Positions 6,970-24,483 of a DNA stretch of 44,674 nt are shown one piece after another. The stretch comes from a virus. Made by a program: the position numbers and the translations under genes. Numbering within the stretch: the first letter of the stretch is position 1; each line of letters starts with the position of its first letter. The notes beneath the pieces were generated by a model, which did not search any database, was not told the DNA's origin, and was given only the letters and a program-made list of their open reading frames with translations. The stretch spans positions 1 to 44,674 of the IMG/VR virus record IMGVR_UViG_3300017788_000045. One strand, 5' to 3'.

Positions 6970-6972
6970 AAT

Positions 6973-7530: not shown

Positions 7531-7535
7531 GTTGA

Positions 7536-7543
7536 TATTTATT
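7536..7543 (-). promoter_or_regulatory. Late promoter AATAAATA, 5 nt before ATG
   Basis: On the minus strand the sequence reads AATAAATA-TCAAC-ATG, driving the four-oxygenase operon. It is back to back with the plus-strand promoter at 7563-7570. Confidence 0.7.
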
Positions 7544-7562
7544 TGTTGGCCTTGCGGCCTAG

Positions 7563-7570
7563 GTTAAATA
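7563..7570 (+). promoter_or_regulatory. Late promoter GTTAAATA, 5 nt before ATG
   Basis: The plus strand reads GTTAAATA-AAGGC-ATG, with the ATG at 7576. The AAGG is too close to the ATG to act as a normal ribosome site. This placement is a main reason for preferring 7576 over the TTG at 7543, which would put the promoter inside the gene. Confidence 0.7.
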
Positions 7571-7575
7571 AAGGC

Positions 7576-8361
7576 ATGCCTTTACTTGCTGACTTTCCTG
7601 TAATTTTTGTACATTATCCAACCGGAGCAGGCGGATGGTTTTTTTCCAGCTTATTATACAATTGTTTTGATACCTCAGATCCTCTGCTATTCGATCAAGT
7701 GGGGTCTGGACATGCCAATAGGTCCATATCTTATACCACTAATTTTTATAAAGATTTCCTCCAAGAAGATCGAGGACTTGATATAATCTATGACAGAAAT
7801 TATGAAAATTTTACCAAATCACAGAGAGTAGATTATATAAGAAATAAACTGTTAGTGGCTCCCGATGCCGATATCAGCACACATGTGATTTCAATACATT
7901 GCAAGAATATTAACGTTTTTTTAGAAGCACTACCTTTGCTGAAAGTCGTCCAGATCAATATAACAGACGGCGATCTTCTAAGATGCACATATAATTATTT
8001 GTATAAAGTTTTATCTCAGACTCCGCTAAACTTTCATACGTTTTGTGAAGAACGTGGAATAACTGGCAGTGAACTAGAAATCGCTCGACAAAAAATACAA
8101 AACCTCAACAAAGAAAACATAGAATACTTTCGTTGGGTAATTCCTTTTATCCAAGAAACCAATCAAACGATTCCTAATGATGCAAAATTCGTTTCTAGGA
8201 TATATTCAATGATGTATGAAGATTATATGACGATAGATCCAGGAATCATGATGAAAGAAGTTTTAGATTTTGTTCAATGCGAATATGATCGAGATTTATT
8301 CGAAACAGCATGCGGCCACATTCTATCGTATAGGATGACCCAACCAATATTTCCAGAATGA
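7576..8361 (+). CDS. Sulfotransferase-like P-loop protein
   Basis: 261 residues from the ATG at 7576. The N-terminus 'PVIFVHYPTGAGGWFFSSLL' has the hydrophobic strand, Gly-rich loop and helix expected of a nucleotide/PAPS-binding loop at the start of sulfotransferase-like folds. A mid-protein strand 'HVISIHCKN' could hold the second site, but I see no clear 3'-phosphate-binding signature. It overlaps the next gene by 4 bases (ATGA) and opens the long plus-strand operon. If a true sulfotransferase, it would move sulfate from PAPS to a hydroxyl or amine; the assignment is fold-level only. Confidence 0.45.
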   Translation: MPLLADFPVIFVHYPTGAGGWFFSSLLYNCFDTSDPLLFDQVGSGHANRSISYTTNFYKDFLQEDRGLDIIYDRNYENFTKSQRVDYIRNKLLVAPDADISTHVISIHCKNINVFLEALPLLKVVQINITDGDLLRCTYNYLYKVLSQTPLNFHTFCEERGITGSELEIARQKIQNLNKENIEYFRWVIPFIQETNQTIPNDAKFVSRIYSMMYEDYMTIDPGIMMKEVLDFVQCEYDRDLFETACGHILSYRMTQPIFPE

Positions 8362-9494
8362 ACGTACTAATTTTAACTCCTGATCGCGTAGGATCAACTT
8401 TCTTACAGAGATTTATCACCATAATCATGCAGCAATATGATTACGGAAAACCTGTAATCAATCTACATGAGCTCACTAACGGAATTCAAAAAAATTACAG
8501 CGATCATTTTAAAATCGAGATGTTAGGTAAACCTCCTAAAGATGAATGGGGCTACCATCAGAAATTAGATGAAATAGTAGATCTATTGAAATCTGCAGAT
8601 CATTTTAAAACCAGCAGATTGGCTCTATACCATCTTAATAATCGTAAAGATTCGCTAGAAGATCAGTTGAGTTTTTACAAGTATCTCAATGATAATTTTT
8701 ACATTATTTCGGCTAAAAGGAAAAATCTTTTCGAACATGGGTTAAGTTGGTGCATAGTCAACGAATCGAAAAATCTAAATATTTTTAGCCACGAAGAAAA
8801 AATTAAAATATTTCAAGACATTTACAAAAGAGGAATATATGTAGACACAGAGGTAATGATCAATTATCTTGACAGATATCTGGAATATCTTGATTGGGTT
8901 AGGAATCATTTCAATGTCAGCACCTATTTTCATTATGAAAAAGACATGAATGATATTGAGAATTTCGTTCAACGACTCAATATATTCCCGCCTGATCAAG
9001 CTCCTGGGGGATGGGAAAGGATGTTCGGCGTTTCATGGAACGATTGGAATCGATGCCATTATTTGATCAGCGACATGAGCGGATTTTCTAAAAAAGTCGA
9101 AATGATCACTAACGAACCGAATAGCCCTCTTTTAGAAAATTTTACCGAAATAGATGAGTCAGCTATATTAAATAACCAGACTCCGTTGCCCGCTTTGTTA
9201 AAAAGAAATAGTTTAAGCGTTGATAATCAAAAATTTTTGCAAGAAAATATTAAAAAATATTCTGATATTTATTATCAAATTACTGATCTAGAAAGCGCAA
9301 AAGTTTTAACATCTGCCATGCCAATTAAATTGCAGACATTCGCAGAAAAGGCCATGCTAATCAAAAATTTTCCAGAATGCTTAGATGCATATAACAGTTG
9401 GTGCGACAAAAATCAAAAGGAAGGAAGATTAGACAAAGAAGGAATTTTGCAAGACGCGCTCAACGAACTGAAATTTTGGTATGGAAAGATCTAG
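8358..9494 (+). CDS. Sulfotransferase-like protein
   Basis: 378 residues. The N-terminus 'MNVLILTPDRVGSTFLQRFI' matches the 5'-phosphosulfate-binding loop pattern of sulfotransferases (strand, then R-x-G-S/T-T, then helix). A second element, 'FYIISAKRKNLFEHGLSW', resembles the 3'-phosphate-binding RxxNL...S motif. Both halves of a PAPS site are thus plausible in the right order. Related proteins occur in T4-like marine phages, usually unannotated. The gene overlaps both neighbours (4 and 14 bases). Acceptor unknown. Confidence 0.6.
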   Translation: MNVLILTPDRVGSTFLQRFITIIMQQYDYGKPVINLHELTNGIQKNYSDHFKIEMLGKPPKDEWGYHQKLDEIVDLLKSADHFKTSRLALYHLNNRKDSLEDQLSFYKYLNDNFYIISAKRKNLFEHGLSWCIVNESKNLNIFSHEEKIKIFQDIYKRGIYVDTEVMINYLDRYLEYLDWVRNHFNVSTYFHYEKDMNDIENFVQRLNIFPPDQAPGGWERMFGVSWNDWNRCHYLISDMSGFSKKVEMITNEPNSPLLENFTEIDESAILNNQTPLPALLKRNSLSVDNQKFLQENIKKYSDIYYQITDLESAKVLTSAMPIKLQTFAEKAMLIKNFPECLDAYNSWCDKNQKEGRLDKEGILQDALNELKFWYGKI

Positions 9495-10200
9495 ACTTTT
9501 TCTCGAATCGTACTCTGAAAAATTTTTTATTGAACTGGGCATAGATAGTTATGAGCAATGCCTCGATAAAGAATTGTTTAAAAACTATCCTTATCCTGTT
9601 TTTTACTTTTTTAATAAGCGAGGTTTCAGAGACGACGAGTGGTCTGAGGATTTGACTGACAAGATATGGTGCATAGGTGATAGTTTCACAGTGGGGTTGG
9701 GGCTTCAGTTTGAACATATATGGCCTAAATTAATTCCGAATTCTATCAATATCAGCTTGAACGGGGCTAGCAATGATTGGATTGCCAAGCAAGCTGTGTA
9801 TATTTTAGAAGAATTAAAACCTAGAGCTGTACTGATACAATGGAGTTATCTTCATCGGAGAGAAAGCAAAGACGAATCTAAAGATGACATCATGAGAATG
9901 ATGCATTATGACGAAAATGATCCCGATGATATCGAAAATTTTAAAAAGAATTTTCGTAGTATAAAAAAATATTTCGGAGTAGTTCCTATCATAGAATCTT
10001 TTATTCCTAAATTTCACAGCCTAGAATCCGATAACGATCAAGATATTTCAATATATAATTTTTTAAACGAAGAAAATGCTGATTTTTTTCCGGAAATTAT
10101 CCCAACTGATTTAGCTAGAGACGGTCATCATTACGGAAAAGAAACTTCACAGCAGTGTGCAAATGAGTACAAACGAAGATTAAAAAATTATGGATTGTGA
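9481..10200 (+). CDS. SGNH/GDSL-type hydrolase-like protein
   Basis: 239 residues. Block I is 'CIGDSFTVGLGL' (nucleophile Ser near residue 64), block III 'LNGASNDWI' supplies the Asn, and block V 'RDGHHYG' gives the Asp-x-x-His pair near the C-terminus. All core residues of an SGNH esterase/acyltransferase are therefore present. No signal peptide is visible, so it should act in the cytoplasm. Likely roles are adding or removing an acyl group, for example O-acetyl on a sugar; the substrate is not evident. It overlaps the preceding gene by 14 bases and the following by 11. Confidence 0.75.
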   Translation: MERSRLFLESYSEKFFIELGIDSYEQCLDKELFKNYPYPVFYFFNKRGFRDDEWSEDLTDKIWCIGDSFTVGLGLQFEHIWPKLIPNSINISLNGASNDWIAKQAVYILEELKPRAVLIQWSYLHRRESKDESKDDIMRMMHYDENDPDDIENFKKNFRSIKKYFGVVPIIESFIPKFHSLESDNDQDISIYNFLNEENADFFPEIIPTDLARDGHHYGKETSQQCANEYKRRLKNYGL

Positions 10201-10783
10201 GATCATAGAAAACAATAGAGAATTTAGATATATGATTTTTAAATCTAAATTTATAGAAGATAATTTATCTGATATCAAATATCAAACTAATGTAATTGCA
10301 GATGTATTGAAAGAAAGATTAAATTCCGAAAGCTCTGACGTTACTTGGCTGTATAAAAAATATAACATTTTTAATTATGCCTCGGGTAGCCCAGCATATT
10401 ATCAAATTTTTAAAGATGCTGTAAACTGTATCAAACAATATTGTACAGAATATTCGGCTCCTACATTTAATCTATGGATGAGAAATTGGTTGAATTTTCA
10501 CGAGTACGATGAGGTTTTAAAACTCCACGGCCATGATGTTACTTTTCACGGATATATATCGATAAACCCGCAATATACTGAAACGATTTTTGTCGATGAT
10601 TTAAATCAAGAAAGATATAAAATTGTTAACCGGGTCGGGCAAATTTATTTAGGACCCGGAAGAAGAAATCATTACGTGAAAAATATCAAAGAATATGAAG
10701 AAAAAAGAATTACGATAGGCATGGATCTAGAAACAAACATAGCGCCCGGTATTAATCTCGGTTGTTTACCGGTACTTATATAA
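10190..10783 (+). CDS. 2OG-Fe(II) oxygenase-like protein
   Basis: 197 residues. 'LWMRNWLNFHEYDEVLKLHG' leads to H113 and H115 (HGH), then 'GYISINPQYTETIF', 'GQIYLGPGRRNHYVKN' with H161, and R173 in 'KRITIGMDL'. This is the common phage TIGR02466-like layout. The ATG at 10190 lies inside the SGNH gene; an in-frame ATG at 10232 is an alternative and would lose only 14 residues. Its stop shares a base with the next start (TAATG). Confidence 0.75.
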   Translation: MDCEIIENNREFRYMIFKSKFIEDNLSDIKYQTNVIADVLKERLNSESSDVTWLYKKYNIFNYASGSPAYYQIFKDAVNCIKQYCTEYSAPTFNLWMRNWLNFHEYDEVLKLHGHDVTFHGYISINPQYTETIFVDDLNQERYKIVNRVGQIYLGPGRRNHYVKNIKEYEEKRITIGMDLETNIAPGINLGCLPVLI

Positions 10784-11346
10784 TGAAAATTACAAATTTT
10801 TTTCCGACGAGAATTCTAACTGATTTTAATCATGAATTCATTCCTAAACTCTTGCCCCTCTGCGACAAATATACAGCAATGACCGAAACCGACTTGTTAG
10901 GTGTAGGAAATTATCCATCGACATTAGCCAACGGAGATCTTAATCAACTTGTCAACGACGAACCAGCAGTAAAAGAATTTTTCGAGTACATGATAGAAAG
11001 CTATGCTCGACCGTTAATAGAAGCCAAAGGAGTTGAATTTGATAGATCGGTGTATAAGCCTTACGGGTTTTTCAGTTCAATGAAACGTCATGCATATTTG
11101 AGCAAGCATGCTCATCAATATTGCACCTTCAGTGGAACTTATTATCTAGATATAGGAAAAAATGTACCTGCATTAGTAATACATGATCCTAGACCCCATT
11201 CGAAATTTGATTTCAATCAGTTGCAGAGTCAAGTTATCGTAAATCCGCAAAACGGACTTTTTATTATGTGGGATTTTTATGTCGAGCACGAAGTTTTTCA
11301 AAAGACCAACGACGAATCACGTAAAGTCTTTTCTTTTAACATCTAG
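10783..11346 (+). CDS. 2OG-Fe(II) oxygenase-like protein
   Basis: 187 residues from the ATG at 10783, chosen because it forms a TAATG junction with the upstream stop; an earlier in-frame ATG at 10762 would overlap by 22 bases. Motifs: 'YLSKHAHQYCTFSGTYYLDI' with H109 and H111, 'NGLFIMWDFYVEHEV' with H169, and R180 in 'ESRKVFSFNI'. TIGR02466-like. It immediately precedes the halogenase, 8 bases away, so the two are probably co-expressed. Confidence 0.8.
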   Translation: MKITNFFPTRILTDFNHEFIPKLLPLCDKYTAMTETDLLGVGNYPSTLANGDLNQLVNDEPAVKEFFEYMIESYARPLIEAKGVEFDRSVYKPYGFFSSMKRHAYLSKHAHQYCTFSGTYYLDIGKNVPALVIHDPRPHSKFDFNQLQSQVIVNPQNGLFIMWDFYVEHEVFQKTNDESRKVFSFNI

Positions 11347-11354
11347 GATTATCA

Positions 11355-12965
11355 ATGAATATAAAAAAATTAACTATCATAGGCGGGGGATCGTCTGGGT
11401 GGATGGCAGCTTCTACTATCGTAAAATTATGTCCGCATATTGATGTACATATCGTGGAATCTAAAAATTATCCAACTATAGGAGTGGGAGAATCAACACT
11501 AGGACATATAAACAGATGGTTATCTATGCTCGATATCACCGACGACATGTGGATGAAGGATTGTAAAGCCACATATAAAAATACTATTAGATTTACGAAT
11601 TTTAGACAAAATGACGGCTCATATTTTGAATATCCCTTTGGCGATTGGGATCCGGCATACAAACACAATGGCATAAACAGTTGGTCTGAGATCGCTGCGG
11701 CTTTTCCGGAAGAATTTCCTCCTCAAACGTTTGCTGAATTTATGAATACCAGTAATACTTTCTTAGCCAAGCACAATAGACAGACCAAAAACGAAGATGG
11801 TATATTAAGACATTTTAATTTCCAGTTTGACACAGCATATCACATGGATGCTACAGCATTCGGACAATGGTTAAAACACAAGTATGCATTGCCTCGAGGA
11901 GTTAATCTTATACAAAACGATATCGTATCATGCGAAAAAGATGACGACGGCAATATCGTTAAAATAATCTGCGAAGATGGCCTGGTACTAGAATCCGACC
12001 TTTGGATAGATTGCACTGGATTTAAATCTTTGTTATTAGAACAGTGGATGGGACAGAAATTTATAGATTTCAAAAATCAATTAGCCAATGACAGCGCCTG
12101 GGCCGGTCCTATACAGATAGAAGATCGAATCAACGAAATACAAAATACCACGAATTGCACGGCACTAGGAAATGGATGGGTATGGAATACTCCTTTATGG
12201 TCTAGGATCGGGACCGGTTATGTTTTTTCTAGCAAGTTTACTGATAAAGATTCTGCTCTAAAAGAATTTAAAACGCATCTAAAAACAAAATACGGAGAAG
12301 AACGAGTTGAAAATACTGATTTTCGACACATAGATATTAAACACGGATATCGAGAAAAATGTTGGGTAAAGAACGTTGTAGGAATCGGTCTGTCTTACGG
12401 CTTTATAGAACCATTAGAATCCACCGGATTGCTGACCACTCATGAAAATTTGATTAGATTGTCAGATATATTAAATCGTCGAAACGGATATGTATCATAT
12501 TCTGAAAAACAAGGATTTAATTTTACGGTAGAAAACATCTTGTTAGGGTTTAGAGATTTTGTATCCATGCATTATGCGTTTTCTACGAGAACAGATACTC
12601 CCTATTGGAGATGGTGTACACAGGAAAATGATTATCGACCAGAAATCTTTGACAGGCATGTTTTAAAAGAGGGAGGATGGGTTACTATTTTAAGTAATTT
12701 AACTTTAACAAATACGTATCCAGATAATATGCCTGGAGCTACGTTTATTACAGCCGGTCTAGGAATTAAATCGGTATCTACAAAAGAAATAACTGAAACT
12801 ATTTTTAAATTGTACAAGATGGATATAAATCTCTTAGAAGAAGAAAAACAAAAATACTACGAATACAGAAATAATGTAGAAACATATATTAAAACATTAC
12901 CGACCCACTATCAATTTTTGCTGGATAATATCTACGGCGAAGATGAATATGCAAAAAAAATATAA
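11355..12965 (+). CDS. Flavin-dependent halogenase (tryptophan-halogenase family)
   Basis: 536 residues, normal family length. FAD-binding GGGSSGW at 10-16; 'IGVGEST' at 42-48; 'CKATYKNTIRF', where K75 aligns with the catalytic lysine that forms the halogenating chloramine (K79 in PrnA/RebH); the family WxWxIP motif is present as WVWNTP at 265-270, with Thr for Ile; and 'GLSYGFIEPLESTG' near 335-348. These enzymes use FADH2, O2 and halide to halogenate electron-rich substrates. A viral member, VirX1 of cyanophage Syn10, has been reported to iodinate diverse substrates. No flavin reductase is visible here, so reduced flavin would come from the host. AGGA precedes the ATG; the gene overlaps the next by 23 bases. 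Confidence 0.9.
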   Translation: MNIKKLTIIGGGSSGWMAASTIVKLCPHIDVHIVESKNYPTIGVGESTLGHINRWLSMLDITDDMWMKDCKATYKNTIRFTNFRQNDGSYFEYPFGDWDPAYKHNGINSWSEIAAAFPEEFPPQTFAEFMNTSNTFLAKHNRQTKNEDGILRHFNFQFDTAYHMDATAFGQWLKHKYALPRGVNLIQNDIVSCEKDDDGNIVKIICEDGLVLESDLWIDCTGFKSLLLEQWMGQKFIDFKNQLANDSAWAGPIQIEDRINEIQNTTNCTALGNGWVWNTPLWSRIGTGYVFSSKFTDKDSALKEFKTHLKTKYGEERVENTDFRHIDIKHGYREKCWVKNVVGIGLSYGFIEPLESTGLLTTHENLIRLSDILNRRNGYVSYSEKQGFNFTVENILLGFRDFVSMHYAFSTRTDTPYWRWCTQENDYRPEIFDRHVLKEGGWVTILSNLTLTNTYPDNMPGATFITAGLGIKSVSTKEITETIFKLYKMDINLLEEEKQKYYEYRNNVETYIKTLPTHYQFLLDNIYGEDEYAKKI

Positions 12966-13719
12966 AAATCTCTATGCTAACGGCGATTCTTTTGTGTTTG
13001 GAATGGAAAGCATAGAGGATTGCTCGACCGTAGAAGAAAATAAAAATTATTCTTTTCCCAAGTATCTATCTAATTTGCTAGATTGCGATTCATATATCAA
13101 TAACTCTTATTGCGGTGCATCTAACGATTTTATTTTTAGGCAAACTGTATTTGATGTCGTAAATGAAAATTTTGTTCCCAGCGAAACTTTCGTGATAATA
13201 GGGTGGACCAGTTTAAATAGGATAGATGTAGGCAGCCAAGGATATCTCGATCAGCTTCCTGAATTTTTAATATCTAAAGACGGTCCTTTAGGCCAATCAG
13301 CGCCAAAAGAACACAAGGATTACGGTATCATGTTTGTAAATCCGGGTTGGGATCTATCGTTTAAAAAAGATGACATAACAATCAATCCAGGCAAGGAAAT
13401 CGTAGATTGGTGTACGAAATATCTATGGACAGATCAGTTGCAGGTTCCTCTTATAGAATCTAAAATGATCAGCCTTCATTATATGCTGGAATACCTAGGA
13501 TACGATCATCTATTTGTTAATACCGTGTCAAATCTACCATTTACAAAACATATAGATATAAACTGCAAAAATTTTTATGATTTAGATAGAGATTCTTTTT
13601 TCCAATGGTCGATAAAAAATTTTTCAAAACACCATCGACGCTGGAATCATTTTGGCCATACAGCGCATAATGAATATGCTAAAAAACTATATGAACATAT
13701 CTCTAAGCAGTTCAAATAA
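12943..13719 (+). CDS. SGNH-like protein, tandem copy 1
   Basis: 258 residues. Block I 'YANGDSFVFGMES' and block III 'NSYCGASNDFIFR' are clear, and 'VIIGWTSLNR' follows as the next core strand. At the C-terminus 'RWNHFGHTAHNEYAKKL' aligns with 'KNHFDEIPHKDYADLLL' of the next gene: the His is kept but the Asp position is Gly. Hydrolase activity is therefore uncertain. It begins inside the end of the halogenase gene; ATG 12949 is a possible alternative start. Confidence 0.65.
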   Translation: MNMQKKYKNLYANGDSFVFGMESIEDCSTVEENKNYSFPKYLSNLLDCDSYINNSYCGASNDFIFRQTVFDVVNENFVPSETFVIIGWTSLNRIDVGSQGYLDQLPEFLISKDGPLGQSAPKEHKDYGIMFVNPGWDLSFKKDDITINPGKEIVDWCTKYLWTDQLQVPLIESKMISLHYMLEYLGYDHLFVNTVSNLPFTKHIDINCKNFYDLDRDSFFQWSIKNFSKHHRRWNHFGHTAHNEYAKKLYEHISKQFK

Positions 13720-14476
13720 AATTCTCTATGCTAATGGTGATTCTTTCGTATTTGGAATGGAGATACTCGGCAACGACGATCGAAATTTCGAAAACAAAAA
13801 TAAATCTTTCGCAGCCCATCTTGCCAATTCATTGGGCAGAACGTTGATTAATAATTCTTATAATTCTTGCACTAATGATTTTATTTTTAGAAAAACCATA
13901 ATAGATCTAGAAAATTTTATCAAAGAGGGAACGAAACCGGATGATATTTTTGTAGTAATAGGTTGGACAGCATTACATAGAGAAGAAATCGTAGCTAGGC
14001 ATGTACTGGATTATTATCATGCAGGCAAGGCCTATAAGTTTAAATCGGACAGCCAAGAACATACTGATTTTGGAACTTTTTTTATTAGCCCGAGCCACAG
14101 CCAAAAAATGAGAATCGTGGCCAATGGCACTGTACAAACCATCGATATAGTCAAAGATGCCGCAGAATTTTGTTCTATGTTTTTTTGGGAAGATGATTTC
14201 CAGCAAGAAAAAGCAGAATCAAAAATTTTAGCTCTGCAGAACTATTTAGAACACAAAGGATTCAGATATCTTTTCGTTAATACCTGTGGCACATACAAAG
14301 AATTTAAGTTAATAGATCATACGAATCCTAGAATTTTTTCTTTTGCACACAGTTTCTTCGAATGGGGTAAAGAAAAATATCCAAAAAATATAAGATTAAA
14401 AAATCATTTTGACGAAATCCCGCACAAGGATTATGCAGACCTTTTGCTTGACTACATAACCAAGAACAGCTTATAA
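13691..14476 (+). CDS. SGNH-like protein, tandem copy 2
   Basis: 261 residues from the ATG at 13691, which gives the N-terminus most like copy 1 (short tail, then 'ILYANGDSFVFGMEI'); an ATG at 13652 would add 13 residues inside copy 1. Block III reads 'NSCTNDFIF', with Gly-Ala replaced by Cys-Thr, and 'VVIGWTALHR' follows. The C-terminal 'HFDEIPH' keeps both Asp and His. The two copies are collinear, indicating tandem duplication and divergence. Function unknown beyond the fold; it is the last gene of the long plus-strand operon. Confidence 0.65.
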   Translation: MNISLSSSNKILYANGDSFVFGMEILGNDDRNFENKNKSFAAHLANSLGRTLINNSYNSCTNDFIFRKTIIDLENFIKEGTKPDDIFVVIGWTALHREEIVARHVLDYYHAGKAYKFKSDSQEHTDFGTFFISPSHSQKMRIVANGTVQTIDIVKDAAEFCSMFFWEDDFQQEKAESKILALQNYLEHKGFRYLFVNTCGTYKEFKLIDHTNPRIFSFAHSFFEWGKEKYPKNIRLKNHFDEIPHKDYADLLLDYITKNSL

Positions 14477-15456: not shown

Positions 15457-17154
15457 ATGTGGCTTTTAGGTATTAATGTAGGACACAATGGGGCTACAGC
15501 TCTGTTTCATAATGACGAATTGATTTTTTATATCGAGGAAGATAGATTATCGAGATTGAAATACGATGGAAATCCCTTTGCTGGCATGCTACTCGCCTAC
15601 GATTATACAGACAAAATAGACTATCTAATTTTATGTGCTACCAGAAATGCCTTTGGCATGGTACCATGGACCGGTGAGGATGCTTATACTTGTTTCATTA
15701 GAAAAATGCAGCCCGGCCATAATGTAGAAACGGTTAAACTAGGCGATGACCATCATTTAACTCATGCTTATACTGCTTTTTATAACAGTGGATTTAAAGA
15801 AGCGGCCGCATTGATTATCGACGGCGCAGGAAGCGGCTGTAGAGTGAGTCAAGAACTTATGCATCAGACTTGGGAAGTAGAATCTATTTGGAAGATGGCA
15901 TACCCTGCTGCACATCAGTGTATGTACAAAAACTATGGTACTAATCTAGTAGATAGTTTTTCTATACAAGAAGAGGAGTTTCCTATAGAAATTTCCGACA
16001 TGCACGGCATAACCAAAAGTTATGAAGCAGTTACGCAGTTTCTAGGTTTCCATGCTATCGAAGCAGGTAAGACTATGGGGTTAGCACCGTACGGTAAACC
16101 TAATCCGAATATCAAAATAAACGATGGTAGATTCAGCAACAGATCTTTTATCAAACCAAACTATCCTGCCGGAAGTTATATAAGATGCGATCTCGATCCG
16201 GAACTTTCTAAACTTAATGGGGATATTTCTTGGCACGACGATCCTGATCTAGTAGGAGACTTCAGAAAAGACATCGCATATGCAGTTCAAAAATCATCTG
16301 AAAAGCGAGTTTTTGATCTAATTAGTAAAACGATCGAAATAACAGGAATGAAAAAAATAGTCATGGCCGGAGGCTACGGACTGAACTGTGTGGCCAATTA
16401 TGAATATCTTAAAGAATTTCCAGATGTAGATTTTTATAACGAACCGATCGCTCACGACGGAGGAAACGTTATTGGAGCATGCCTTTATATCTATAGATTA
16501 GTTTCAGAAACATCTAATATCAGACCGCTGACCTCGTTGTATCTAGGTCCTGATAGAAGCAAAGATTATGATTCTATGGATACAGAGGGATTTGAGATAA
16601 AAGAATCAAATGCGGCAGAAGTAGCAAGGCTGATTGCAGACGGTAATATCGTATGCTTGTTCCAAGGTAGGTCTGAAGCAGGACCTCGAGCATTGGGCAA
16701 TAGAAGCATTTTGTACGATCCGTCGGTAATCAATGGCAAAGACATCGTTAATATAGTCAAGAAAAGAGAATGGTTCAGGCCGTTTGCCGGATCCTGTTTA
16801 GCAGAAAAAGCCAACGAATGGTTCGACCTACGAACTAAAAAAGAAACTCCATTTATGATGTATGCTGTCGATGTGCTGCCAGAAAAAAGAGATATCATTC
16901 CGGCGATCACTCATGTAGATGGAACCTGCAGAGTGCAAACAGTTGCAAGAGATCAAAACCCTCATTATTACGATCTCATCGATGAATTTGATAAGATCAA
17001 AGGAATCCCTATCCTGTTTAACACCAGTTTTAATCTAGCAGGTGATCCTTTGGTAGAAAAAATCAGTGAGGCAACCAATACACTCAAGAAATCAGATCTC
17101 AAGTATCTTTGGTTGCCTGAAGTAGGTAAATTACTGATTAAGAAAGAGGATTAA
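15457..17154 (+). CDS. Carbamoyltransferase, NodU/CmcH/TobZ family
   Basis: 565 residues, full family length. The ASKHA-type N-terminus 'GINVGHNGATALFHNDELIF' is followed by the metal-binding HHLTHA at 99-104, 'VMAGGYGLNCVANYEYL', 'GRSEAGPRALGNRSIL' around 405-416 and the C-terminal YrdC-like part with 'FRPFAGSCL'. Enzymes of this family carbamoylate a hydroxyl on sugars (NodU on Nod factors, TobZ on tobramycin) or other scaffolds (CmcH on cephems) from carbamoyl phosphate and ATP. AAGGAAA precedes the ATG. Its stop overlaps the stop of the convergent methyltransferase in a TTAA palindrome. NodU-type genes are known in T4-like cyanophages. Confidence 0.9.
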   Translation: MWLLGINVGHNGATALFHNDELIFYIEEDRLSRLKYDGNPFAGMLLAYDYTDKIDYLILCATRNAFGMVPWTGEDAYTCFIRKMQPGHNVETVKLGDDHHLTHAYTAFYNSGFKEAAALIIDGAGSGCRVSQELMHQTWEVESIWKMAYPAAHQCMYKNYGTNLVDSFSIQEEEFPIEISDMHGITKSYEAVTQFLGFHAIEAGKTMGLAPYGKPNPNIKINDGRFSNRSFIKPNYPAGSYIRCDLDPELSKLNGDISWHDDPDLVGDFRKDIAYAVQKSSEKRVFDLISKTIEITGMKKIVMAGGYGLNCVANYEYLKEFPDVDFYNEPIAHDGGNVIGACLYIYRLVSETSNIRPLTSLYLGPDRSKDYDSMDTEGFEIKESNAAEVARLIADGNIVCLFQGRSEAGPRALGNRSILYDPSVINGKDIVNIVKKREWFRPFAGSCLAEKANEWFDLRTKKETPFMMYAVDVLPEKRDIIPAITHVDGTCRVQTVARDQNPHYYDLIDEFDKIKGIPILFNTSFNLAGDPLVEKISEATNTLKKSDLKYLWLPEVGKLLIKKED

Positions 17155-17678
17155 CCTCTATACCACTCGCAGTAGAGCCTTACTACTTTACCATCAGATT
17201 CTATTTGGAAATTCTCCATACGGAAAAGATACAGATCAGCGAACCGTTTTAATTCTGCTTCGGACCAAGGATAGAAGTCGATCTGCTTACAGATGTCGTT
17301 TCCGTGATCTTGTCTTCCGGGATTGACCCTCCAGTAAATTCTGGATTTAGGTTTCAGCCAATCGCACACCGAAGTGATCTGTTTATGGATATCCAGTTCT
17401 GTGCCGAAATTGATACTACCGAGACAGGCAGCGACATCAAATCTACGATCTGCGACATAATCTTCGATGGTAGTTTTAATATCAGCCTCGTCAAACGCAG
17501 GATCTATTCCTATGACATTCTTTACCAAGCCCTTGAAAGGATTCTTTCCGCACCCAACGTCCAATAACCATTCGTCATCTTTGATTTTAGATGCTATAGT
17601 TTTTGGAGAACTGAATGCATAAACTCCAGCGGGGTTCCAATGATTTTTAAAATAATCATTAAGAAAATCTTGATTCAT
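17151..17678 (-). CDS. SAM-dependent methyltransferase, class I
   Basis: 175 residues. 'WLLDVGCGKNPFKG' is SAM motif I, 'VIGIDP' ends strand 2 with an acidic residue, 'FDVAACLGSINF' is motif post-II/III, and 'KSRIYWRVNPGRQD' lies after. The same block series appears in the gene just upstream on this strand, so they are paralogues. TAAGGAG precedes the ATG. Small size and lack of a substrate domain leave the target (sugar, small molecule or protein) open. Confidence 0.75.
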   Translation of the reverse strand: MNQDFLNDYFKNHWNPAGVYAFSSPKTIASKIKDDEWLLDVGCGKNPFKGLVKNVIGIDPAFDEADIKTTIEDYVADRRFDVAACLGSINFGTELDIHKQITSVCDWLKPKSRIYWRVNPGRQDHGNDICKQIDFYPWSEAELKRFADLYLFRMENFQIESDGKVVRLYCEWYRG

Positions 17679-17721: not shown

Positions 17722-18450
17722 TTATTTTTCATAAACGAAAAATAAACGATCGTTGTTGTCTTTTTTAAATGTCAGCAATTTCAACCCTAATCGTTTAGCG
17801 ATGTTGTTAGCATGTTCGAAATTCCACGGAAATATATCTATCCACGGTCCAGTTTTCCATTGTATTCCCGGATTGGCTCGAAGATAAATTTTGCCGCCGT
17901 CGGTTAACAGGTCTGTACACTTTTTAAGATTATTTTGAATATCGAGTATCTCATTGAAATTTATAGATCCTAAAGCCAGTATATGATCGTACTTTTCTTC
18001 TACAACATAATCTGCTATACTGACCATGTAATCTGCGCAGTTATTAAACGGATCGATCCCTACTAGATTTTCGATCCTATTTTTAAACTGATTATAACCG
18101 CAGCCTACATCTAGCACTGCTCGGGGATTCTGTTTATTGATTTCGTCGACTAGACTCCATCCCGAATACATGTATACGTCAGTGTTAGGGCGCCAGATTT
18201 CGGAAAAAAATCTAGCCATATAAAGATTATCCAATCTATCAGTGATTTCTTTCACCGACCCCGTAAATTCTATATGTAAATCTAACGGTTGTTCAACAGC
18301 AGCTTTGAATTTTTCGTATCTCGCCGGCGTCCACGGGAGGAAATCGATCCTGGTATCCGGACTTAATGTTTCAAGAACTGCGGAATATTTAGGTAAATTA
18401 AAGGCGGACTTTAAATTTTTTGTAATTAGTTGAAAAATTTTCGTATTCAT
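17722..18450 (-). CDS. SAM-dependent methyltransferase, paralogue with N-terminal extension
   Basis: 242 residues. The C-terminal 150 hold 'VLDVGCGYNQFKNRI', 'LVGIDPFNNCADY', 'YDHILALGSINFNEI' and 'GKIYLRANPG', matching the neighbouring methyltransferase block for block. The first 85 or so residues are an extra region ('TRIDFLPWTPARYEKFKAAV') without a motif I recognise. No Shine-Dalgarno is visible. It is transcribed toward its shorter paralogue across a 43-bp gap, forming a two-gene minus-strand unit between two plus-strand operons. Partner-type or sequential methylation is conceivable. Confidence 0.75.
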   Translation of the reverse strand: MNTKIFQLITKNLKSAFNLPKYSAVLETLSPDTRIDFLPWTPARYEKFKAAVEQPLDLHIEFTGSVKEITDRLDNLYMARFFSEIWRPNTDVYMYSGWSLVDEINKQNPRAVLDVGCGYNQFKNRIENLVGIDPFNNCADYMVSIADYVVEEKYDHILALGSINFNEILDIQNNLKKCTDLLTDGGKIYLRANPGIQWKTGPWIDIFPWNFEHANNIAKRLGLKLLTFKKDNNDRLFFVYEK

Positions 18451-18537: not shown

Positions 18538-19119
18538 ATGCTACCAAATAAAATATTCATGATAGGAGCTCCGGGCAGTAGGTGGAGCGGAATCGCGCAA
18601 AATATCGAGGACAATATACCTGGTTTTAACGTCAGCGATAGAACTCAACAACGTCAATATTCACATCACGCATTTTCTGGACATCTAGGAATTTACTTCG
18701 GAACAGGATGGGAAAATGACACTAGCCTAGATCAAGAAAATCTCGATCTCGGATTTGAGAATGTCAACGGAACTAGGATATTGAAAAGCCATGAGTGGGC
18801 CTATCAATTAGACGAAATCAAACAACGCTACCCCGATGATTGGATCATGCTGGTTTATAGACCGGAAATGAGTTGTTATAGTTGGTGGCACGAAGCTGGC
18901 GGATTTACTATCAAGTATCCAGATTATCGTCCCTATTATCAAGACAGCGTAAAGATGCTTAACGAAATTATGAGGATGAATCAATCAATATTTAAATTCT
19001 CACAAAAACATAATCTCGTGTGGCAACACATATCCGCTGATTGGATCGAAGAGAATTTCGGTAAACGCATAGAGCCATCCGTGAAACTCCCAGACACGTT
19101 AGTTACTCTGTTGAAATAA
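18538..19119 (+). CDS. Sulfotransferase-like P-loop protein (GAPGSRWSG type)
   Basis: 193 residues. 'IFMIGAPGSRWSGIAQNI' is a strand-loop-helix resembling the PAPS-binding loop, and 'DWIMLVYRPEMSCYSWWHEA' could be the second motif with Arg and Ser in the 3'-phosphate position. I recall proteins with this GAPGSRWSG start from marine T4-like phages, usually unassigned. Its stop codon shares a base with the TctA start (TAATG), so it is co-translated with the transporter. Enzymatic activity is inference. Confidence 0.5.
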   Translation: MLPNKIFMIGAPGSRWSGIAQNIEDNIPGFNVSDRTQQRQYSHHAFSGHLGIYFGTGWENDTSLDQENLDLGFENVNGTRILKSHEWAYQLDEIKQRYPDDWIMLVYRPEMSCYSWWHEAGGFTIKYPDYRPYYQDSVKMLNEIMRMNQSIFKFSQKHNLVWQHISADWIEENFGKRIEPSVKLPDTLVTLLK

Positions 19120-20555
19120 TGGAATATATAATCTGGTTAATGTTAGGAACTGTATATGGTACTATAGTGGGAGTCATTCCTGTCGCAGGAGCCACGATCG
19201 GCCTATTGGCTGTTTTTGGAATGATCGATAGCTTTCTAGGAAATCCCTATCTGGGTGTTGTTTTCATGACTGCTTTTCTTGGAGCGGTTAGCAGCAGCGA
19301 TAGCTTCACCAGCATACTAACTGGAATACCGGGTTCAGGAAGCACCGCGGCATCGATTATTGACGGATACCCAATGGCAAGGAACGGTCAGGGTGCCAGG
19401 GCCGTAGGTATCGCATTGATGGATTCTACTGTTAATGGTTTGTTTTGGGGGTTGTTAGCATTTGGCCTCATGCCATTTTACAGCAAATTAATTCTATTTT
19501 TTGGTATACCAGAATTTGCAGCTTTAATGTTATTAAGTCTTGCATGTGTAGGATTTATCACTGTTAAAAATCCCATGTTGAGCATCGCAAGTGTAGCTTT
19601 GGGTTTATTTCTCGGAATGATAGGTCAGGATCCCGGAACCGGCGCATATAGATTTACTTTTGGTTGGGATTATCTCGCTGCCGGTATACAAATCGTTCCG
19701 ATCATTGCAGGCCTGTTTGCTGTTCCAGAGATCATAGACTGCCTACGGGGAAAAATGAAAAAACCACCCCCTATGGTCGACTATTGGTCACAGTTAAAAC
19801 AAGGCTTTAGCGATTGCTGGCAACATCGACGTGATATGATGAGAGGCGGTGTGATAGGATTTTTTACAGGGATACTTCCCGGTATAGGCGGTAGTGCAGG
19901 GGATATGATGGCCTACGGTGCCACTGTGGCAAAGCACCCAAAAGAACAGTTTGGTAACGGAAATGTAAAAGGCCTTATTGGCTGCGAAGGGGCCAACAAT
20001 GCACAAAAGCCTGCAAGTTTAATTCCGACAATATTGTTTGGAATTCCTGGAGCACCATTCGCTGCGATAATGATGGCGGTATGTATAATGTTAGGGCTTG
20101 AATTAGGAACTCCGTCTCTGCTAGAAGATCAAAAATTTATGTGGGCTATTGCTGGTGGTTTTTTAATCAGTACTGTAATAAGTTTTATAATTTGTATATT
20201 CATTGCCCGATGGATAGTAAAGATTTTAGAAATTCCCACATGGATCTATGCGGCTGTAATTTCAACTGTGGTCGTTTGGAGCAGTTTTCAATATTCCGGA
20301 ACTATCAATGATTTATATATTTTGGTTGTTTGTGGAATTATTGGTTTTTTTGCCAAACAAATCGGATTAAGCAGACCGGCGATTTTATTAGCTTATGTGG
20401 TTGCAGAAAAATTTGAAAACTATACACAACAAAGTTTTACTCTATATACCTGGAGTGAAATCTTATCGAGGCCGCTGACACTGGCCTTGTTGATTGTTTC
20501 TATATTAATAGTGATCAACAGCGTAAGAAAATTTAATGGTATAAACTTTAATTAG
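19119..20555 (+). CDS. tctA: TctA-family permease, tripartite tricarboxylate transporter
   Basis: 478 residues, close to the usual length of about 500 for TctA. The protein is almost wholly hydrophobic, with roughly ten to twelve membrane spans. Hallmarks: 'GTVYGTIVGVIPVAGATIG' near the N-terminus, 'SILTGIPGSGSTAASIIDGY', the internal repeat 'GVIGFFTGILPGIGGSAGDM' near 245-264, and 'PTILFGIPGAPFAAIMM'. TctA is the large inner-membrane subunit that moves carboxylates such as citrate, driven by ion gradients, with TctB and the periplasmic binder TctC. A TctC-like gene follows after 8 bases; no TctB is present. It looks intact, not decayed. Substrate cannot be read from sequence. Confidence 0.9.
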   Translation: MEYIIWLMLGTVYGTIVGVIPVAGATIGLLAVFGMIDSFLGNPYLGVVFMTAFLGAVSSSDSFTSILTGIPGSGSTAASIIDGYPMARNGQGARAVGIALMDSTVNGLFWGLLAFGLMPFYSKLILFFGIPEFAALMLLSLACVGFITVKNPMLSIASVALGLFLGMIGQDPGTGAYRFTFGWDYLAAGIQIVPIIAGLFAVPEIIDCLRGKMKKPPPMVDYWSQLKQGFSDCWQHRRDMMRGGVIGFFTGILPGIGGSAGDMMAYGATVAKHPKEQFGNGNVKGLIGCEGANNAQKPASLIPTILFGIPGAPFAAIMMAVCIMLGLELGTPSLLEDQKFMWAIAGGFLISTVISFIICIFIARWIVKILEIPTWIYAAVISTVVVWSSFQYSGTINDLYILVVCGIIGFFAKQIGLSRPAILLAYVVAEKFENYTQQSFTLYTWSEILSRPLTLALLIVSILIVINSVRKFNGINFN

Positions 20556-20563
20556 GAGATGTC

Positions 20564-21619
20564 ATGAAAAAAATATTAATAGCATTTTTGCTATCTTTAA
20601 ATTTACCAGCACTTGCTGAATTTAGAATGATAGTACCACAAGCAGCGGGCAACGGAACTGCTGTTTGGGCAGATATCATAGCCAGACATTTAGAAAAACA
20701 GTTAGGCGAAAAAATAGTTATACAACATATTCCGGGAGCCAAAGATATCTCCGGTTTCAATGAATTTCATAACAAATTAAGATTTGATGAAAAGACAATC
20801 ATGGTCAGTCATGGCGGCAACGGGATAGGCTATCTGGTGGATCGCGTTGATTATGATTATAAACACTATGATTCCATCGGAATGATGAATCTCAATATCG
20901 TGGTCGGCAAAAAGAAAGGCGCAGAAATGCAAGGACAGAAAGCCAGGATAGCAGGTAGCAGCGGACAAGAAACAGACGGAATGGCTATTGCGCTATTACT
21001 CTGCGGCAATTTACCGACTATGCAGACCTATTTAGATTGTTGGAATCAAAATGCTATTTGGGTGAACGGAGTTAAAGGCAGCGAACGAAGACTGGGGTTT
21101 ATGAGAGGCGAATTTAACGTTGCTCGCGAATCGGTCGTAGCATGGTTTAAACACTACACAAGCCCAGAAAGCAATGCAGAAATTTGGTTCCATCACGGCG
21201 TCTATGATCTTAATACCAGGCGGCAAAATGAAGATCCTAATTTTCCTCGAGGATACCGATTTGAAACACAGTTTAAAAACGTGCATGGAGTAGATCCAAA
21301 AGGTCCCCTATACGATGCCTATACATTAAGTAGGAATTTCAGAGATGTTCTACAAAAGGCACTATGGGTTAACAAAGGCAATCCTAACACAGAAAGACTT
21401 CGAGCCGCTCTAACTAAAATGATCACGGATCCCGAAGCAGCCGCTGCACTGGAAAAAGACACCGGCAAATATGAATGGATTATAGGCGATGCTGGAAACC
21501 AAGTAGTTGATCGTATACGCCGTAATATAACCGAACAAAAACTTAAAGACATGGTTTGGTGGCACGAAAACGCCTATAAATTCCCCAGCGTATACAAGCC
21601 GGAGTTGATAATCAAGTAA
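20564..21619 (+). CDS. tctC: TctC/Bug-family periplasmic solute-binding protein
   Basis: 351 residues. A signal peptide 'MKKILIAFLLSLNLPALA' precedes a predicted cleavage after ALA at residue 18, so the product should be exported to the periplasm. The mature start 'FRMIVPQAAGNGTAVWADII' followed by 'LGEKIVIQHIPGA' follows the TctC/Bug pattern (P-x-A-x-G-x-x-D, then VVxNxPGA). The usual Asp after the Gly-rich loop is replaced, so ligand preference may differ. AGGAG precedes the ATG. Pairing with TctA supports function as a binding-protein-dependent carboxylate importer placed in the host envelope during infection. Confidence 0.8.
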   Translation: MKKILIAFLLSLNLPALAEFRMIVPQAAGNGTAVWADIIARHLEKQLGEKIVIQHIPGAKDISGFNEFHNKLRFDEKTIMVSHGGNGIGYLVDRVDYDYKHYDSIGMMNLNIVVGKKKGAEMQGQKARIAGSSGQETDGMAIALLLCGNLPTMQTYLDCWNQNAIWVNGVKGSERRLGFMRGEFNVARESVVAWFKHYTSPESNAEIWFHHGVYDLNTRRQNEDPNFPRGYRFETQFKNVHGVDPKGPLYDAYTLSRNFRDVLQKALWVNKGNPNTERLRAALTKMITDPEAAAALEKDTGKYEWIIGDAGNQVVDRIRRNITEQKLKDMVWWHENAYKFPSVYKPELIIK

Positions 21620-21641
21620 TCGATCGCAAATAAGTATATGC

Positions 21642-22250
21642 ATGATCATCGATTATAACAAAGGAATACACCCAGATAGCGGCAAAACTTACACAGTCCA
21701 TAAAGATCTCATCACTGTACCTTTTTGGACGGAAGAATTTTGCCGCGGTCTGATCGATTTAGCAGAATTTCACGATCATAGATTCCACTCTCATGAACAA
21801 AAAGATGAGGATTTAGGCTATAACGCTCTGTATTTCTCTCACATTAGCCAATATCTATTCGAAGATTATGTCCAGCACTACGTTCGAGATCTAATTCCCG
21901 TAATCAAAGAAGTTTGGCCCTACGCGAGAATTCCGGGATGGCAAAGTCCGTTTATATTAAAGTACCATAAGAACGGAAAGCGGCATCTAAATCCACATCA
22001 TGATTTAAGTGCGATTAGCTGGAATATCAAATTAAACGATGGGTATCAGGGAGCTTGTTTAGAATTCCCTAGGCAAGAATTCAACAATAAAGAAACTCCC
22101 GTAGGGCATCTGCTCATGTGGCCGTCGACTATCACGCATTATCATCAGGTACCCCCTATAGAGCAGGGAACAAAATATTCAGTCACTGGCTGGACATGGC
22201 CATCGGGGGCAGCCGAATGGCACGGAATTAAAAATATTTTTACGGATTAA
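21642..22250 (+). CDS. 2OG-Fe(II) oxygenase, procollagen-lysyl/prolyl-hydroxylase-like
   Basis: 202 residues. 'NPHHDLSAISWNIKLNDGYQ' gives H119 and D121, then 'GACLEFPRQ', 'GHLLMWPSTITHYHQVPPI' with H168 and K178 in 'GTKYSVTGWTW'. This is the lysyl/prolyl-hydroxylase-type layout with Lys as probable 2OG ligand. It lies 22 bases after the TctC gene, in the same apparent operon as the transporter. Substrate unknown. Confidence 0.8.
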   Translation: MIIDYNKGIHPDSGKTYTVHKDLITVPFWTEEFCRGLIDLAEFHDHRFHSHEQKDEDLGYNALYFSHISQYLFEDYVQHYVRDLIPVIKEVWPYARIPGWQSPFILKYHKNGKRHLNPHHDLSAISWNIKLNDGYQGACLEFPRQEFNNKETPVGHLLMWPSTITHYHQVPPIEQGTKYSVTGWTWPSGAAEWHGIKNIFTD

Positions 22251-22253
22251 AAA

Positions 22254-22904
22254 ATGTACAATCATATATTTCCTATCACATATATCCAGGCCAACATATC
22301 TTTAGAATTAGATATGGCTGAAATTGAAAACATATTAAAAGATTTAGAAAAAGATTACAAAGATCCAAGATTAATTGAAAATAAAGCTGGAAACAAAATG
22401 ACTTTTGATAAGCTGTTGTTGACCGACAGATATAAAAACAGTCAACTAACAAAAATCATAACGAAATATCTAAACCAATACAGATATGATATACTGGGCG
22501 TCGAAGATAATGATCTTGAAATAACCGAAAGCTGGGTAAATTTTTGTCAACCGGGCGCCGGACATCATATGCATAATCATTTTAATTCTGTGTTAAGCGG
22601 AACATTTTATTTAGACATAGAAGAAGAGCGCGGTGGAGAAGTTGTTATCGTAGATAACAGGTCCAAGGGAACGATTCATCACCGAGGAATTCCAAATTAT
22701 CATAACGTTACAGAAATTTTTGTTTCTCCTAAAAAATTTGATCTTTTAATTTTTCCTTCATATATGTATCATTGGGTTACTCCTAACCTGGGAGAAAAAA
22801 ATAGGAAAAGTCTAGCCTTTAATAGTTTTTATAATAAACCTATCAGTTCGGATCCCATAGGTTATAGCTGCACTGGGTTAAATTTTACTTTGAACCAGCC
22901 ATGA
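22254..22904 (+). CDS. 2OG-Fe(II) oxygenase-like protein
   Basis: 216 residues, TIGR02466-like. 'SWVNFCQPGAGHHMHNHFNS' holds H107 and H109, then 'LSGTFYLDI', 'FDLLIFPSYMYHWVTPN' with H173, and R184 in 'KNRKSLAFNSF'. It begins 3 bases after the preceding stop and overlaps the luciferase-like gene by 4 bases (ATGA). The run of His before the HxH is a local peculiarity. Confidence 0.8.
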   Translation: MYNHIFPITYIQANISLELDMAEIENILKDLEKDYKDPRLIENKAGNKMTFDKLLLTDRYKNSQLTKIITKYLNQYRYDILGVEDNDLEITESWVNFCQPGAGHHMHNHFNSVLSGTFYLDIEEERGGEVVIVDNRSKGTIHHRGIPNYHNVTEIFVSPKKFDLLIFPSYMYHWVTPNLGEKNRKSLAFNSFYNKPISSDPIGYSCTGLNFTLNQP

Positions 22905-23902
22905 AATTATCTATATTAGATCAGTCTATCGTCAATGATTCGATCCCCCAAAGTCAAGCTATTATCGAATCGATCGAAATGGCTAAGAATTGCGAAAGAT
23001 TAGGCTATTATAGATACTGGGTATCTGAACATCACAATAGTCCTACAGTCGCCGGAACTGCTCCGGAAATCCTAGTTTCGGCTATTGCAGCGTCTACAAA
23101 AAAAATAAGAGTAGGTAGCGCAGGAGTATTGCTGCATTTTTATAGCCCTTATAAAGTAGCAGAGCAATTTTCGGTGATAGAATCCTTCGCTCCAGATAGG
23201 ATAGATCTGGGGGTAGGCCGAGCTCCCGGTGCAGACGGATTATCAGCAAGAGCTATCAACGAAAATTTCGATCCGTCTAGCGATTATAAAATGAAAATTA
23301 GAGAACTACTGCATTGGTTAGATGGAATACCGCTGCCAGAAGACCATATACACGGCCACGGAATGATCACTGCGAATCCTTTAGGATATTCGAGCCCAGA
23401 ACTATGGTTGTTAGGCAGCAGCGTAGAAAGTGCGACCATCGCCGCAGAGCTAGGATTACCTTATTCATTCGCTCATTTTTTCAATGACGGCGCAGGAATG
23501 CCGGAAGCATTAGACATATATAGAAATGAATATATCTCTAGCAAAAGATTTCCTACTCCGAAATTGAACGTCTGTATTTCCTGCATAGCAGCTGACAGCT
23601 ATGAAAAAGCTCTATGGTTGAATTCTACGAGAAATCATTGGAGAACACAGTTCGAAAACGGCATGCGTACAGCACTGAAGCACCCCGATGAGCTAATAAA
23701 TTACAATTATAGCGACGAAGAAAAAGAAAAAATCGATGAATGGAATTCTAATGCGATTATCGGAACCGTAGATCAGATCGAATTTAGATTAAAAGAGTTA
23801 TCTCTAAAATTCGACATAACAGAATTCGTATTAAATACTTGGACATATGATCTCAAAGATCGATTCGATTCTTATTTTTTGATGTCAAGATTGATAACAT
23901 GA
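22901..23902 (+). CDS. Luciferase-like (LLM) flavin-dependent monooxygenase
   Basis: 333 residues, normal length for the class. The N-terminus 'MKLSILDQSIVNDSIPQSQA' and 'YWVSEHHNSPTVAGTAPEIL' are characteristic of the LLM subgroup near YhbW/MsnO8. 'KIRVGSAGVLLHFYSPYKVA' and 'RIDLGVGRAPGADG' complete the TIM-barrel FMN site. These enzymes use reduced FMN and O2 to oxidise organic substrates; true light emission is limited to LuxA/LuxB and is not implied. It overlaps an oxygenase on each side by 4 bases, so three oxidative enzymes are co-translated. No dedicated flavin reductase is nearby. Confidence 0.85.
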   Translation: MKLSILDQSIVNDSIPQSQAIIESIEMAKNCERLGYYRYWVSEHHNSPTVAGTAPEILVSAIAASTKKIRVGSAGVLLHFYSPYKVAEQFSVIESFAPDRIDLGVGRAPGADGLSARAINENFDPSSDYKMKIRELLHWLDGIPLPEDHIHGHGMITANPLGYSSPELWLLGSSVESATIAAELGLPYSFAHFFNDGAGMPEALDIYRNEYISSKRFPTPKLNVCISCIAADSYEKALWLNSTRNHWRTQFENGMRTALKHPDELINYNYSDEEKEKIDEWNSNAIIGTVDQIEFRLKELSLKFDITEFVLNTWTYDLKDRFDSYFLMSRLIT

Positions 23903-24483
23903 AAACAACGACAACAAATTATTGCATGATCTGCGATGACTTTCTTGATGAAGAACAGCAGAATCTTATAATATCTAGAATAGATAATCCTAATTTTATA
24001 TGGACAGTTGCCTGCGACCACACTGTGGGGTATGACTTATCAAAAGAATTCGAAAATGACACGAGATTCAAAGAAACTCCTCAGCTGGTTTCTTTAGTTA
24101 TGACTGACAATAATCCTAGCTGTGTATTTCATCAAGATTTTACCAATGTACTAAAAACTTTTCTAGTTAAAAATAATTTTCGAGCAGAATTTATACACAG
24201 AATCAAGGTGAATAATCAAGAATTAGATCTATCATTCACAGACGATATGTTCAATACTCCGCATGTAGACTGGAATTTTCCTCACAATGTGATGTTATAT
24301 TATGCCATCGATTCTGATGGGGACACTGCGTTATTTGATCGCATAGACGGACATTTGACAATCGTCGAACGCATCACTCCTAGAAAAGGTAGAGCAGTCC
24401 TCTTTGATGGTCAAACCTTACATGCCGGAAGACCGCCGTCGACTAGTACTAGGAGGTTAATAATAAATTATAATTTTCGATGA
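23899..24483 (+). CDS. 2OG-Fe(II) oxygenase
   Basis: 194 residues. 'MFNTPHVDWNFPHNVMLYYA' gives H122 and D124, followed by 'DSDGDTALFDR', 'KGRAVLFDGQTLHAGRPP' with H175 and R185 or R186 for 2OG. The triad is complete. The N-terminal 'MICDDFLDEEQQNLIISRI' is the usual opening of this family. It ends the 18538-24483 operon and its stop abuts the end of the convergent HAD-like gene without any gap. Substrate unknown. Confidence 0.8.
   Translation: MKTTTTNYCMICDDFLDEEQQNLIISRIDNPNFIWTVACDHTVGYDLSKEFENDTRFKETPQLVSLVMTDNNPSCVFHQDFTNVLKTFLVKNNFRAEFIHRIKVNNQELDLSFTDDMFNTPHVDWNFPHNVMLYYAIDSDGDTALFDRIDGHLTIVERITPRKGRAVLFDGQTLHAGRPPSTSTRRLIINYNFR

Follow-up and report, generated by a model that had tools for sequence, protein, structure and literature searches.

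A TctA/TctC-like transporter gene pair in uncultured viruses is linked to a recurring set of putative modifying-enzyme genes

We analysed the entire IMG/VR virus record IMGVR_UViG_3300017788_000045, whose 44,674 bases are called the window below. Matches to terminase, tail sheath, tail tube, head closure and tail-fibre genes identify it as a T4-like myovirus fragment. Seven plus-strand genes at 18538-24483 encode a sulfotransferase-like protein (ST), a TctA permease, a TctC-like binding protein, two oxygenases (OXA and OXB), a luciferase-like oxidoreductase (LUC) and a third oxygenase (OXC). A first-pass annotation of the same DNA had described this operon, and all seven genes were found there. 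Adjacent genes overlap by 1-4 bases or are separated by at most 22 bases. Because the record carries terminase, tail and head-closure genes, and the TctA-TctC pair recurs in other viral loci, we regard the operon as belonging to a virus and not as a chance occurrence.

The first gene, ST (18538..19119), encodes a short P-loop protein with the motif GAPGSRWSG. It overlaps by 1 base with the gene for TctA (19119..20555), a membrane permease of the tripartite tricarboxylate transporter (TTT) family. After an 8-base gap follows the TctC-like gene (20564..21619), encoding a putative periplasmic solute-binding protein (SBP), and 22 bases further on OXA (21642..22250; PF13640, 2e-7; phrog_61). OXB (22254..22904; PF13759, 5e-21; phrog_81) begins after another 3 bases and overlaps by 4 bases with LUC (22901..23902), a member of the MsnO8 family (PF00296, 9e-29; TIGR03558, 1e-100). 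LUC in turn shares 4 bases with the final gene, OXC (23899..24483; PF13640, 8e-7). OXA, OXB and OXC are Fe(II)/2-oxoglutarate (2OG) oxygenases, and all three match PF13640 or PF13759 above the cut-off. Two minus-strand genes precede the operon. MT1 (17151..17678), a divergent neighbour and companion of the module described below, encodes a small S-adenosylmethionine (SAM)-methyltransferase-like protein whose match to PF13489 is weak and below the cut-off. MT2 (17722..18450) encodes a second SAM-methyltransferase-like protein of the MT1 family, with weak matches to tRNA methyltransferase families only, and shares 58% identity with a minus-strand gene of locus L001.

Window TctA matched PF01970 over the full length of the profile (1-423 of 423) with an E-value of 6.7e-97 and 325 bits, far above the curated cut-off of 28.9, which confirms the earlier naming of this gene. 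No PHROGs family matched window TctA or the window TctC-like protein. A profile scan of viral contigs found TctA relatives in at least 138 of them. Among the best 80 of these, the same TctC-like gene stood beside TctA in 78 loci, and the two loci lacking it were both cut by the contig end. Most TctA-TctC gaps are only a few bases, and the gene order is reversed in 28 of the 78 paired loci. In a tree with 24 sampled bacterial TctAs, the viral proteins formed one clade apart from them (support 1.0) on a long stem of 0.98, and window TctA shared no more than 32% identity with each of the 24. Median dN/dS for viral pairs was 0.06 for TctA and 0.11 for TctC; viral TctA is under strong purifying selection. 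One locus, L016, has two different TctC-like genes (7315-8361 and 10660-11745) flanking a single TctA.

The binding protein could not be named in the same way. A PF03401 search of the window record returned no match, and none of the 38 members of the family (the window protein and 37 viral relatives) matched any Pfam family, PF03401 included. The TctC-like protein was therefore identified by its fold, and we label it TctC-like instead of a PF03401 member, since the sequence test failed across the family. An N-terminal signal peptide, MKKILIAFLLSLNLPALA/E, can be read from its sequence. When a profile of the 38 sequences was compared with the PDB, weak, collinear similarity was found to BugD and other TTT proteins only. 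The AlphaFold model of the window protein had a mean confidence (pLDDT) of 92.6. In a fold comparison the top 11 proteins were all solved TTT/Bug binding proteins, with Z-scores of 19.8-22.0 over 267-277 residues, and the next protein scored 13.2. Bug27 (22.0), BugD (21.7), Rpa4515 (21.5) and MatC (20.9) were among them, as was TphC. The predicted structure thus clearly places the protein in the TTT/Bug binding-protein fold class. The earlier name TctC holds for the modelled fold but not at the level of a Pfam sequence match.

In BugD, an Ala-Gly-Gly...Asp loop (residues 15, 16, 17 and 20) that joins strand 1 to helix 1 holds the ligand carboxylate via two waters (PMC5812351). In a sequence alignment with BugD, the TctC-like family has a loop at this place (AAGNGTA in the window), but Ala, Ser or Thr stands where BugD has the Asp. 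Because the Asp is replaced, the ligand cannot be read by analogy with BugD. The window importer would take up small, probably acidic, molecules.

Dereplication at 85% TctA identity left 30 loci, in which we counted the neighbours of TctA. The TctC-like gene was present in all 30, an MT gene in 23, ST in 19 and a further gene family, OXN, in 18. ST proteins conserve the motifs GxPGSxW and KSH. The earlier description of ST as sulfotransferase-like is weakly based: nine of 21 ST relatives matched PF13469 (Sulfotransfer_3) weakly (best E-value 2e-4), and the window protein itself had no Pfam match; an ST profile found nothing among PDB sequences. The OXN family likewise had no Pfam match. Its model (pLDDT 88) has the double-stranded beta-helix fold of Fe(II)/2OG dioxygenases, and the structures listed in the fold comparison were of the 2OG-oxygenase fold, the best being proline 3-hydroxylase with a Z-score of 11.8. 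H143, D145, H199 and R209, an HxD...H set with an Arg, are invariant in the family. In some loci without OXN, ST is followed by a protein of about 231 amino acids (7601-8296 in L229, and similar loci) that was recognised by eye from the sequence as a ferritin-like di-iron protein.

The linkage was also examined from the side of the enzymes. Two further scans of viral contigs, one with OXN alone and one with ST, provided the best 80 of at least 593 OXN loci and of at least 588 ST loci. After dereplication, 51 OXN loci had enough flanking sequence. Within four genes of OXN, a TTT-type binding protein was found in 45 of them, ST in 44 and MT in 36. The binding protein was canonical TctC in 33 of the 45 cases. 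The position beside MT, ST and OXN is occupied by either of two separate TctC lineages. Among 29 OXN records, a PF03401 protein was present in 25 and TctA in 3; the orphan canonical TctC proteins of the TctA-less viruses matched PF03401 at 1e-18 to 1e-36. In all 25 OXN-picked records with a PF03401 gene, one such gene lay within 2.5 kb of OXN, compared with 2.6 expected under random placement; the test is blind to SBPs, and shared ancestry makes its nominal probability too small to quote. Of 47 ST loci, 46 have MT within four genes of ST, 31 have a binding protein there and 7 have OXN. The core of the module is MT plus ST, followed by the binding protein and then the iron oxygenase. Its position in the genome differs, lying in the tail region in the window and next to a DNA polymerase gene in L125; the latter locus rules out that the module always stands beside tail genes.

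A complete TTT system also has TctB, a small membrane subunit. PF07331 (TctB) had no match in the window, whose record is a fragment; TctB is poorly conserved, and a host copy could serve. In a few loci a 117-amino-acid hydrophobic protein follows TctC (L054, 12964-13317). It could be a divergent substitute for TctB, but by Pfam it is not TctB.

Our preferred reading, which we hold with about even confidence, is that the viral TTT-type importer is the uptake arm of a pathway and brings in an acidic substrate on which tailoring enzymes act; export, transport and the shared substrate are what we infer. The TctC-like protein would be exported to the periplasm and capture a small acidic metabolite, which TctA would move across the inner membrane, with TctB either dispensable or supplied by the host. 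MT, ST and an iron-dependent oxygenase (OXN or the ferritin-like protein elsewhere, OXA in the window) would then act on the imported compound or a derivative of it. In TctA-less viruses, the orphan canonical TctC may work through host membrane subunits. We favour import followed by modification of a shared compound because a binding protein constantly accompanies the modifying enzymes, with two TctC lineages in its slot. That the enzymes might act on the imported compound is also suggested by analogy, since bacterial TTT genes likewise adjoin enzymes that use the substrate. Orphan or complete TTT genes next to arylmalonate decarboxylases (AMDases) have been read as importing the substrate for those enzymes (PMC5812351). 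A more specific version, that aquatic phages widely import an acidic metabolite through a TTT-type binding protein of their own, many of them also with their own TctA, and then hydroxylate, sulfate and methylate it with the linked enzymes to give a compound that benefits infection, is offered only tentatively.

The module resembles several known systems. As in the TTT systems of Salmonella (TctCBA) and Bordetella (BctCBA; TC 2.A.80), TctA and a signal-peptide-bearing protein of the TctC fold are encoded side by side. However, the viral pair has no recognisable adjoining TctB, the window TctC is too divergent for PF03401, and the window module is found in a virus with MT, ST and an oxygenase as companions. 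Proteobacterial orphan Bug genes and AMDase-linked TTT genes also place a binding protein, with or without a membrane component, beside enzymes thought to use acids (PMC5812351, PMC5994714), whereas the window module is viral, has other enzymes, and would have a transport role by our interpretation. The likeness to cyanophage PstS is that a phage-supplied periplasmic binding protein would redirect host uptake. Phage PstS is thought to aid host phosphate uptake. It is, however, a phosphate protein of the ATP-binding cassette (ABC) type, encoded by one gene and with a known ligand. PstS has been mentioned in viral genomes (PMC6359870).

Several points weigh against import coupled to modification. 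The putative identities of ST and MT come from weak matches, and OXN is not in the window. The enzyme set is not fixed, given that OXN occurs in so few of the ST loci. The best 80 loci of each scan are a non-random sample in which many records are fragments, and because neighbourhoods are inherited together, the linkage counts are not independent. TctAC lay within 1.5 kb of OXN in 14 of 16 cases, with 1.4 expected, and this figure is an illustration and partly circular, as the OXN profile was built from TctA neighbours. Finally, no recognisable TctB (PF07331) adjoined TctAC in 33 viral records, one of which has PF07331 elsewhere.

Plain nutrient scavenging is possible, if on the unlikely side. 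A viral high-affinity binding protein, with or without TctA, would feed carbon or nitrogen to the infected cell, and MT, ST and the oxygenase would have separate jobs and merely share the island. Most of the ligands known for TTT systems are carboxylates, among them citrate, aspartate and glutamate (PMC5812351), and the excess of orphan PF03401 proteins over TctA in the OXN records suggests that the binding protein alone is commonly supplied. Scavenging leaves unexplained, however, why two TctC lineages occupy one slot beside MT, ST and OXN.

The genes could instead be co-inherited in one variable island with no common function, which we think improbable. The flanking genes and genome position do vary, as does the gene content beyond the core. 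Yet the linkage persists across TctAs less than 85% identical. It is seen with either gene order, with both TctC lineages and at more than one place in the genome, and the genes compared are under purifying selection.

The first-pass annotation had proposed that TctAC brings in citrate, a 2OG precursor or iron-citrate for the virus's 2OG/Fe(II) oxygenases generally. This idea has attractions. The window encodes eight supported 2OG oxygenases (nine had been counted earlier): four on the minus strand (5276-5788, 5769-6356, 6349-6969 and 6973-7530), one at 10762-11346, and the plus-strand OXA, OXB and OXC. Among the TTT systems characterised so far, citrate is the most frequent ligand (PMC5812351), and OXN shows linkage to the binding protein. 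If 2OG or iron were supplied in general, TctA viruses should be rich in oxygenases and oxygenase-rich phages should carry TctA. Neither holds, and the supply idea is therefore not supported. PF13640 was found in only 10 and PF13759 in only 7 of 33 TctA-bearing records, mostly one each, which rules out that all TctA viruses are oxygenase-rich and leaves the window as an outlier. In three TctA records of 57-157 kb, PF13640, PF13759 and OXN are all missing, which is, for these families, the kind of case that the annotation itself had named as contrary to its proposal. Conversely, OXB-like oxygenases occur in 39 cyanophage or pelagiphage records, none of them among the phage records with a TctA match, of which there are only 7. 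The closest companions, MT and ST, belong to classes whose enzymes need neither 2OG nor iron, and in 40 of the 47 ST loci OXN is missing from the four genes on either side. Across viruses, a TTT-type binding protein and a non-heme-iron oxygenase (OXN) do occur close together, but the other operon genes of the window, OXA, OXB, LUC and OXC, are not regular companions of TctAC: near the other viral TctAs examined, LUC and OXC have no relatives and OXA and OXB few. OXA may fill the slot beside TctC that OXN often holds elsewhere, and an oxygenase may still play a role. As a general explanation, supply of cosubstrate or iron is quite unlikely. The row of four minus-strand oxygenase genes (5276-7530) is a local expansion absent from the other TctA records examined.

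It is very improbable that the binding protein senses or blocks, by signalling to host receptors or altering the cell surface against other phages, for although TctC homologues can signal in bacteria, such as BctC in Bordetella pertussis (PMC5812351), and many viruses have an SBP without TctA, the SBP adjoins a conserved TctA permease in the window and its relatives.

Further genes of the window are of note. A tryptophan halogenase homologue (11355-12965; phrog_2928, E-value 3e-146) shares a cargo region with the oxygenases. Two overlapping adjacent genes at 12943-14476 have DUF6071 similarity and possibly arose by duplication. A NodU-like carbamoyltransferase is encoded at 15457-17154 (phrog_1601, E-value 3e-154).

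When 85,000 bacterial genomes were scanned by pattern, only two TctC-like loci emerged, L085 and L086. The latter resembles a phage contig within a Pelagibacter metagenome-assembled genome (MAG). Of 197 genomes from the order to which this MAG belongs, 9 others carry distant TctC relatives. L085, in a MAG of the marine bacterium B5-7, has TctA, TctC, ST and an MT-like gene together at 6497-10337 on a bacterial-looking contig, which suggests an island or prophage remnant. The bacterial TctA relatives in L179 and L180 are long frames of 651-668 amino acids and may be TctA-TctB fusions. At their 3' ends, the gene adjoining the TctA/TctC relatives is presumably a PrpF-type tautomerase. Among the phage records of INPHARED there were 7 distant TctA matches (24-31% identity) in human-faecal phage contigs and Salmonella/Escherichia records, which we judged bacterial-type, and no TctC-like match. 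Bug gave one distant match, OXN one partial cyanophage match and ST one single-cell virus, so no cultured model was found.

In the literature, our search for viral TTT genes found only a 2014 study of SUP05 viral contigs (PMC4164917) and a review citing it, and a search for Bug proteins in phages found nothing. In the parts of the SUP05 study available to us, a tctA domain hit and a 2OG-FeII oxygenase are both listed as viral auxiliary genes, also marine, with the role of tctA given as unknown (PMC4164917). In contrast to the window, the same parts report a single domain hit and describe no TctC partner or conserved module.

The results suggest that many uncultured aquatic viruses carry importers of the TTT type, which form a large family with a divergent TctC lineage of its own. 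This family was not seen in the cultured phage records that we searched, and it is rare among the 85,000 bacterial genomes. The viral effects on uptake known so far mostly concern phosphate. Here the importer is tied to a defined enzyme set, and one binding assay could show which dissolved acid aquatic phages target.

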